DNA of 42,076 bases from Trueperaceae bacterium. GTDB lineage: Bacteria; Deinococcota; Deinococci; Deinococcales; Trueperaceae. The stretch is taken from positions 1 through 42,076 of the forward strand of contig JAABRX010000022.1 in assembly GCA_011390675.1 (NCBI GenBank), in the 5' to 3' direction. The translations under genes and the position numbers were made by a program. The notes under the pieces were generated by a model that did not search any database, was not told the origin of the DNA, and worked only from the letters and a program-made list of their open reading frames with translations. This document shows, one piece after another, positions 12,507 through 13,261 of this stretch (its first letter is position 1; every line of letters starts with the position of its first letter).

Positions 12507-12519
12507 TCGGGGCGCGCCC

Positions 12520-12566
12520 AAACGAAACCGGCGCCCATCTGGGCACCGCGCTTGCTCTGGCTTGAT
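12520..12566 (-). ncRNA. Candidate small RNA, copy 1
   Basis: The transcript is predicted from a TTGACG-N17-TACGTT promoter (12601-12573). It would start near 12566 and end after an 8-bp hairpin (12547-12530, loop GA) followed by GGTTTCGTTT. All eight pairs form in the minus-strand RNA, one as G-U; in plus-strand RNA that pair would be a C-A mismatch. An outer AAGCC/GGTTT stem (12563-12559 with 12529-12525) also forms, again with one G-U. It contains no ATG. Length is about 45-50 nt. It points toward the 3' end of the ferredoxin unit. Confidence 0.4.
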
Positions 12567-12650
12567 TTCTACAACGTACCCCGGTATGCGCGATTCGTCA
12601 AGACCTTGCGGCCGTATGGGGTCTCGAGGGTGGGCGAACGCCGAAAACCG
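12521..12650. repeat. 130-bp intergenic repeat, copy 1
   Basis: It aligns without gaps to 13132-13261. By hand 78 of the first 90 positions match, and the last ten (CCGAAAACCG) are identical; the stretch between is weakly conserved. It holds the candidate small RNA, its promoter and a conserved upstream block. The two copies flank the VOC gene. Confidence 0.85.
12573..12601 (-). promoter_or_regulatory. Sigma-70 promoter of small RNA copy 1
   Basis: Minus strand: -35 TTGACG (12601-12596), 17-bp spacer containing the GCATACCGGGG block, -10 TACGTT (12578-12573). Spacer length and both boxes are kept in the second copy. Confidence 0.6.
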
Positions 12651-12721
12651 TCCTCGAACCCGCACGAATCGGGCCGCGAACGAGCTTCGAGCGCGCCGTT
12701 CGTGGCGCAGGGCCGGTCGCG

Positions 12722-12727
12722 TACCCT
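12722..12727 (+). promoter_or_regulatory. -10 box TACCCT, leaderless start of the VOC gene
   Basis: TACCCT ends six bases before the ATG at 12734, with no ribosome binding site. Between the two small-RNA repeats the gene thus has its own promoter. Confidence 0.55.
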
Positions 12728-12733
12728 GGTCCC

Positions 12734-13108
12734 ATGACCCAAGGCATCCACCACGTCGCCGTCCGCGTCACCGACCTCGAGCGCTCCGTCGCCTTCTACG
12801 AGCGGCACTTCGACCTGCACGTCGCCAGCCGCATGACGCTCGCGAGCGGCGCCGACATCGCCTTCCTCGCGCACCCCGCGGGCGGCGCGCAGCTCGAGTT
12901 GATCGCCGGCCTCACCGACCACCACCCGGGCGACGGCCTGGTGCACCACGTGGCGTTCGGCGCCGACGACGTGCCGGCGCTGTTCGCGCGACTACGGGCC
13001 GCCGGGGTGCCCACGCTCGAGGACGCCCCCCAGAGGCTCGCGAACGGGCGGCAGCTGTTCTCGTGCCGAGGACCGGACGGGGAGCGGCTGCAGGTCAGCG
13101 GGGGGTGA
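12734..13108 (+). CDS. Glyoxalase/VOC superfamily protein
   Basis: This 124-residue protein is one VOC module: the first half has GIHHVAVRVTDLERSVAFYER (metal-type His6/7) and LAHPAGGAQLELIAG, the second half GLVHHVAFGADDV, LFSCRGPDGERLQVSGG. The pattern of His, Glu, His, Glu at equivalent strands fits a metal-dependent lyase or isomerase such as methylmalonyl-CoA epimerase or lactoylglutathione lyase-like proteins. The substrate is not predictable. It is a leaderless gene standing alone between two copies of the 130-bp repeat, with a hairpin 1 nt after its stop. Confidence 0.88.
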   Translation: MTQGIHHVAVRVTDLERSVAFYERHFDLHVASRMTLASGADIAFLAHPAGGAQLELIAGLTDHHPGDGLVHHVAFGADDVPALFARLRAAGVPTLEDAPQRLANGRQLFSCRGPDGERLQVSGG

Positions 13109-13109
13109 C

Positions 13110-13130
13110 GGGTCCCCGCCTCGGGGACCC
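13110..13130 (+). terminator. Hairpin after the VOC gene
   Basis: GGGTCCCCG-CCT-CGGGGACCC is a perfect 9-bp stem starting two bases after the VOC stop codon. On the other strand it follows the candidate small RNA (copy 2) and could terminate it as well. Confidence 0.65.
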
Positions 13131-13177
13131 CAACGAAACCGGCGCCCCTCGGGGCGCCGCGCGTGCTTTGGTTTGAT
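13131..13177 (-). ncRNA. Candidate small RNA, copy 2
   Basis: Predicted from TTGACG-N17-TATCTT (13212-13184), starting near 13177. It has a perfect 8-bp hairpin (13158-13141, loop GA) followed by GGTTTCGTT. The closing pair is C-G here and A-U in copy 1, a compensatory change. An outer AAACC/GGTTT stem can form. There is no start codon in the transcript. Readthrough would end at the 13110-13130 hairpin, antisense to the VOC 3' end. Confidence 0.42.
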
Positions 13178-13261
13178 TCCTAGAAGATACCCCGGTATGC
13201 ACGATTCGTCAAGGCCTTGCGCGCCGACGGCCTCGCGGTGGCTCCGAACCGCCGAAAACCG
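13132..13261. repeat. 130-bp intergenic repeat, copy 2
   Basis: Gapless counterpart of 12521-12650. Hairpin, -10 and -35 elements sit at identical offsets (9, 52 and 75) from the start of each copy. Confidence 0.85.
13184..13212 (-). promoter_or_regulatory. Sigma-70 promoter of small RNA copy 2
   Basis: Minus strand: -35 TTGACG (13212-13207), 17-bp spacer, -10 TATCTT (13189-13184). It is among the best sigma-70-type promoters in the window and no protein gene follows it. Confidence 0.65.

Follow-up and report, generated by a model that had tools for sequence, protein, structure and literature searches.

A conserved promoter-terminator unit across the Deinococcota, a candidate family of minimal small RNA genes

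The window, which is the whole stretch of 42,076 nucleotides analysed here (contig JAABRX010000022.1 of the Trueperaceae assembly GCA_011390675.1), shows two intergenic copies of a short minus-strand unit made of a predicted promoter and a terminator-like hairpin, a unit that is found in nearly every sequenced relative of the phylum Deinococcota. The copies form a gapless direct repeat of 134 nt, 78% identical (81% by BLAST, E=3e-27), and they are the only two full copies in the window's own genome, which is 79% complete. Each copy contains an upstream half-site of a GCAWA repeat, a -35 element, a 17-nt spacer with a GCATA half-site, a -10 element, a predicted start 6 nt from the -10 element (12566 in copy 1 and 13177 in copy 2), a hairpin and a U-tract (Table 1). 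The initial annotation had described a gapless repeat at these coordinates, minus-strand TTGACG-N17-TAnnTT promoters and starts at these two positions; the repeat and the promoters are present as described in both copies, and the starts fit the AUCA start conserved in relatives. The predicted RNA of copy 1 is AUCAAGCCAGAGCAAGCG, followed by the hairpin CGGUGCCC-agau-GGGCGCCG and by GUUUCGUUU, and that of copy 2 is AUCAAACCAAAGCACGCG, followed by CGGCGCCC-cgag-GGGCGCCG and by GUUUCGUU. Folding of both gives an inner 8-bp hairpin. The statement that the RNA has no start codon holds for copy 2 and fails for copy 1, in which an ATG (12538, minus strand) sits in the hairpin loop, without a ribosome site, and begins a chance open reading frame. 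The neighbouring genes are a nirS gene encoding a cytochrome cd1-type protein (PF02239), a ferredoxin-like gene, the VOC gene and a DUF533 gene; the link to the nirS cluster that had been drawn is incidental. A second strong hairpin (GGGTCCCCGCCTCGGGGACCC), which lacks a U-tract, is located at 13109-13129, between the stop codon of the VOC gene and the copy 2 terminator.

Table 1. Features of the two copies and of the gene between them (R1, covariance model described in the text)
Feature	Position	Strand	Basis or remark
Copy 1, whole repeat	12517..12650	-	gapless alignment; R1 E=7.9e-10 at 12520-12611
Copy 1, upstream half-site (C/T)GCAA of GCAWA repeat	12606..12610	-	kept in relatives, G 91/96, A 87/96; outside the search pattern
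Copy 1, -35 TTGACG	12596..12601	-	sequence
Copy 1, GCATA half-site inside the spacer	12585..12589	-	sequence and relatives; 20 bp from the upstream half-site
Copy 1, -10 TACGTT	12573..12578	-	sequence; in relatives the final T of TAnnnT is kept in 96/96
Copy 1, RNA of about 42-47 nt (predicted), 5' AUCAAG	12520..12566	-	prediction based on the distance from the -10 and on the AUCA start kept in relatives
Copy 1, predicted terminator hairpin CGGTGCCC-agat-GGGCGCCG	12529..12548	-	one G.U pair; U-tract 12528-12520
Copy 2, whole repeat	13128..13261	-	gapless alignment; R1 E=3.9e-9 at 13131-13222
Copy 2, upstream half-site CGCAA	13217..13221	-	sequence and relatives
Copy 2, -35 TTGACG	13207..13212	-	sequence
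Copy 2, GCATA half-site in the spacer	13196..13200	-	sequence and relatives
Copy 2, -10 TATCTT	13184..13189	-	sequence
Copy 2, RNA of about 42-46 nt (predicted), 5' AUCAAA	13132..13177	-	prediction based on the distance from the -10 and on the AUCA start kept in relatives
Copy 2, predicted terminator hairpin CGGCGCCC-cgag-GGGCGCCG	13140..13159	-	U-tract 13139-13132
VOC/glyoxalase gene lying between copies 1 and 2, convergent with the latter	12734..13108	+	PF00903 E=7e-20; not a constant partner in relatives

The conserved part of the unit is the promoter. The site alignment contains 137 distinct sites, 96 after removal of redundancy, and shows the consensus TGCAWAnnC-TTGACG-MATRNYGCATACCGgG-GTATnnT-n6-(T)AUCA-hairpin-U4-8. 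Three of its parts are conserved even though they lie outside the search pattern: TGCAW upstream of the -35 element, the C just before it, and the T that closes the -10 element. The features of a sigma-70-type promoter are present (TTGACn, 17 bp, TAnnnT and a predicted start 6-8 nt downstream). Around the -35 element and in the spacer are (T)GCAWA direct repeats at a fixed spacing of 20 bp, about two helical turns, and many lineages show a third GCATA between them. One promoter half, GCATAC-N4-GTATGC, is a near-palindrome. When eight genomes were searched allowing up to three mismatches, every match was, as far as examined, one of these units. Variant units of D. ficus have CTGGGC in place of TTGACG and keep the TGCAT repeats 20 bp apart, the -10 element, AUCA and the hairpin; retention of the repeats despite the lost -35 element is expected if they bind an activator-like protein and are not part of the -35 element.

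Downstream of the promoter, a GC-rich hairpin with a U-tract directly after it on the same strand has the form of an intrinsic (rho-independent) terminator, and in both copies of the window the hairpin plus GGTTTCGTT is a predicted terminator of the minus strand only. Although the search had used the promoter alone, stem and U-tract, scored by a fixed rule, are present at the right distance in 129 of the 137 sites, in 5.3% of dinucleotide shuffles and in 2.6% of random genomic windows. Of the 137 sites, 119 carry a U-tract (at least 5 T of 9) on the RNA side and 16 on the opposite side. The estimated RNA length at these sites has a median of 28 nt and ranges from 23 to 51 nt. In the A2 alignment, 77% of stem cells are paired (60% after shuffling), double changes occupy 30 cells against 11.8±2.7 in shuffles, and the covariation score is 0.379 against 0.160, values reached by none of 500 shuffles. 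The long-linker Trueperaceae type shows 86% of inner-stem cells paired, with a stem too invariant for informative covariation. What is kept of the RNA is the hairpin, whose stem shows compensatory changes, the U-tract and a start resembling AUCA; the remaining sequence is free. Many Trueperaceae units contain a single-stranded linker of 15-20 nt before the hairpin. Stem covariation, together with the further copies described below, bears out the support that had been looked for in relatives, although differences between the two window copies, which the initial annotation had taken as proof, do not carry this conclusion. The outer AAACC/GGTTT stem that it proposed is rejected: its pairing in relatives (73.6%) equals that of shuffles. 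Strong terminators with a perfect stem and a U-tract are rare in these genomes: 72 are found in 801,888 bases of loci, which were chosen around units, and 43 of them are these units.

The unit is distributed across the phylum. Within the GTDB family, BLAST shows relatives in 21 of 39 genomes, and the matching parts are the promoter and the hairpin-plus-U end. With a pattern that covers the promoter alone, sites appear in 34/39 Trueperaceae genomes, without a match of the reversed-pattern control, and in 93 of the 111 genomes of the phylum set, in which that control is nearly zero. A stricter exact pattern, searched against 84,980 species, matches 38 stretches, all in Deinococcota (Trueperaceae, Thermaceae, Meiothermus, Calidithermus and Thermus). 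The covariance model R1 was built from 34 elements without Thermus and Deinococcus, and the phylum set includes no Deinococcus genomes; R1 matches 107/111 of its genomes, 83/85 of those of good quality and 30 of 31 genera. Its copy number is exactly one in each Thermus genome and 1-14 elsewhere, with four units in G036, a single contig of 3,260,398 bp, at about 9.0, 158.0, 159.6 and 2802.2 kb. In 201 kb, true units have E<=2e-6 and the next match has E=9.1. The unit is also carried by Deinococcus megaplasmids (D7000, AJ005 and D. ficus pDFI1; E from 6e-13 to 2e-8), and pDFI1 contains eight matches at E<1e-3 (L334, L339, L341-L345), of the variant with a CTGGGC-like sequence at the place of TTGACG. 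A plasmid search with a Thermus query gave no match. The exact pattern shows 0 matches in IMG/VR viral contigs and phages show only short chance matches, and a phage origin was rejected. As the initial annotation had stated, no named family fits: Rfam 15, in gathering-threshold and E-value modes, gave no match. Retention in nearly every sequenced relative of the phylum indicates that the function is probably important.

The reading that we favour, starting from the observed anatomy, conservation, terminator structure and distribution, is that each repeat belongs to a phylum-wide family of minimal small RNA (sRNA) genes, probably controlled by a regulator; judged from sequence, its chances are slightly better than even. 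The housekeeping RNA polymerase would begin at the predicted starts, make an RNA of 28-50 nt and stop at the built-in intrinsic terminator, and a dedicated DNA-binding regulator at the (T)GCAWA repeats would set the output. The product, with a 5' end of the AUCA type, would be a terminator-hairpin RNA acting via its hairpin or U-tail; in the long types the single-stranded linker might base-pair with targets. The majority of copies in Trueperaceae and in the families f2 and f3 would be stand-alone genes. In Thermaceae the unit would have become the leader of rtcB (Thermus) or of an rluB-like gene (Meiothermus and Calidithermus), expressed only by read-through. The pair of minus-strand units, each a promoter with a short structured RNA, which the initial annotation proposed, is supported as a pair of predicted units; the nature of the hairpin as a terminator, the conservation of the promoter and not of the RNA, the phylum-wide family and the leader placement in Thermaceae were absent from it.

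Several points weigh against an sRNA gene family. Transcription, regulator and RNA function are all inferred from the DNA. Conservation of the RNA sequence does not extend from genus to genus, which is unusual for a trans-acting sRNA, and a search for complements of the seed and linker gave no conserved target, the seed itself being conserved only in part of Trueperaceae. Part of the apparent conservation of the promoter is inflated by the positions that the search pattern fixes. The last point is the gene context: units of Thermaceae and f4 precede a co-directional gene in 46/47 cases, in Thermaceae at a median of 23 nt from the hairpin end, and the Thermaceae pattern suits a role in cis.

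This placement leads to the main rival, a promoter-proximal attenuator, in which transcription would stop by default after about 30-50 nt and would be relieved by a factor that loads on the polymerase at the GCATA repeats, read-through giving the downstream gene (rtcB, rluB-like) or an antisense RNA. The model for such loading is the Q proteins of phages, which load on RNA polymerase at late promoters. In Thermus, the unit is a single copy at a fixed locus, and the downstream gene, assigned from sequence, is rtcB, whose GGGAGGG-type ribosome site directly follows the U-tract, leaving no obvious room for another promoter. Several Thermus species encode an RtcB whose length of about 870-970 aa includes an intein-like insertion following GFDIN (L139, L140, L141, L142, L143, L146); in L144 and L145 it is about 476 aa, without the insertion. 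The downstream gene in Meiothermus and Calidithermus encodes an RluB-like pseudouridine synthase. The Meiothermus-like genome G071 (L130:1501, L150:4255) has lost the hairpin and shows the promoter fused directly to an outer-membrane-like gene, which also speaks for attenuation. Other Meiothermus keep the terminator after the promoter in this gene family, and G071 represents a natural terminator deletion. Outside Thermaceae the case is different. In f1-f3, which are Trueperaceae and two other families, 42 of 62 units have a convergent gene as the next one downstream within 600 bp (p=0.007, with lineages that are not independent), and this majority indicates that no downstream gene is served there. 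The gatB gene of f4 has its own predicted leaderless promoter, TATAAT-N7-ATG, after the terminator (L161, L165, L167, L183, L186, L314), and the downstream gene varies by lineage. No constant neighbour was found in Trueperaceae among VOC, GNAT, DUF2249, TetR, aldehyde dehydrogenase, YciI, CAAX, NamZ and others; the arrangements YciI-unit and ilvA-like-unit-pfkB-like recur in several genera. Cis attenuation is thus strong for Thermaceae and weak elsewhere, and as an account of the whole family we consider it rather unlikely, though serious.

The DNA itself could matter instead, as a protein-binding site (the GCATA repeats and the near-palindrome GCATACCGCGGTATGC) that titrates its protein or helps to organise the chromosome; the promoter would then be unavoidable, and the terminator would do no more than insulate it. 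The conservation of promoter DNA and not of RNA sequence, the restriction of matches to units in the eight genomes and the repeats retained by the D. ficus copies without a -35 element agree with this; a pure binding site would not need TAnnnT at exact spacing, an A/T start and an intact terminator, which nearly all copies keep, and we regard the explanation as improbable. Still less credit is due to a dispersed non-autonomous repeat without host function, similar to miniature inverted-repeat transposable elements or repetitive extragenic palindromes. Such a repeat would account for the intergenic placement, the 1-14 copies, the position that differs between lineages, the local duplicates 0.6-16 kb apart and the expansion on pDFI1, but neither window copy shows terminal inverted repeats, the flanks are not conserved beyond promoter and terminator, and the fixed Thermus locus and the near-universal retention in the phylum do not fit it. 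Ordinary or bidirectional terminators of neighbouring genes, a possibility raised in the initial annotation and suggested by the f1-f3 hairpins, which often lie close to where a convergent gene ends, are refuted as a full explanation by the one-sided U-tract and the conserved promoter always on the same strand, while chance is excluded by the reversed-pattern, shuffle and random-window controls, and the two together merit hardly any belief.

Returning to the sRNA gene family, a conserved promoter with a free RNA sequence reverses the usual pattern of sRNA families and raises the question of which role a hairpin RNA of free sequence, or transcription this short, could play. One possible answer, offered tentatively, is a "start-stop" gene with a dedicated regulator and a promoter that targets only these units; its function would be to produce or titrate a terminator-hairpin RNA of free sequence, or would reside in the short transcription itself, and not in base pairing or coding, and in Thermaceae it would serve as an attenuated leader for RNA-repair or RNA-modification genes. 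With its presence in 107/111 genomes, the unit is as widespread in the phylum as many housekeeping RNAs, yet it has no Rfam entry, and literature searches on sRNAs or start-site maps of Thermus, Meiothermus or Truepera found no relevant description. Public ONT-cappable-seq data exist for T. thermophilus HB8 (PMC10770324), but according to that paper reads shorter than about 80 bases do not align, which limits their use for RNAs of this size. The Thermus unit, which is single-copy and precedes the RNA ligase gene rtcB, is found in a tractable species.

Among known systems, the Yfr1-type sRNAs of cyanobacteria are very short, have their own promoter and an intrinsic terminator, and are found phylum-wide at varying loci with a conserved unpaired core. 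The Deinococcota unit shares this architecture and distribution, but it keeps its promoter and not an RNA sequence. The lambdoid late promoter pR'/tR' shows embedded protein-binding repeats and a terminator shortly downstream, with Q-dependent antitermination; the unit is similar in its promoter-embedded repeats and nearby terminator and differs in the absence of a late operon, phage genes or viral-contig matches, and in its often convergent gene. Within the same phylum, the regulatory RNAs PprS/Dsr2, OsiA, OsiR, DnrH and Dsr11 of D. radiodurans have been described individually (PMC8217566, PMC6843392, PMC7247583, PMC6798082, PMC7022480); the passages of PMC8217566 consulted describe no such phylum-wide family. 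The small noncoding repeats of D. radiodurans are likewise dispersed noncoding repeats in a Deinococcus, but they are mosaic, number 295 copies and are absent from D. geothermalis (PMC1978522), whereas the unit is low-copy and phylum-wide. Compared by description with these nearest candidates, the unit represents a new family within a known broad kind, the short RNA gene or terminator unit: conserved in its promoter, free in its RNA sequence and distributed across the phylum.
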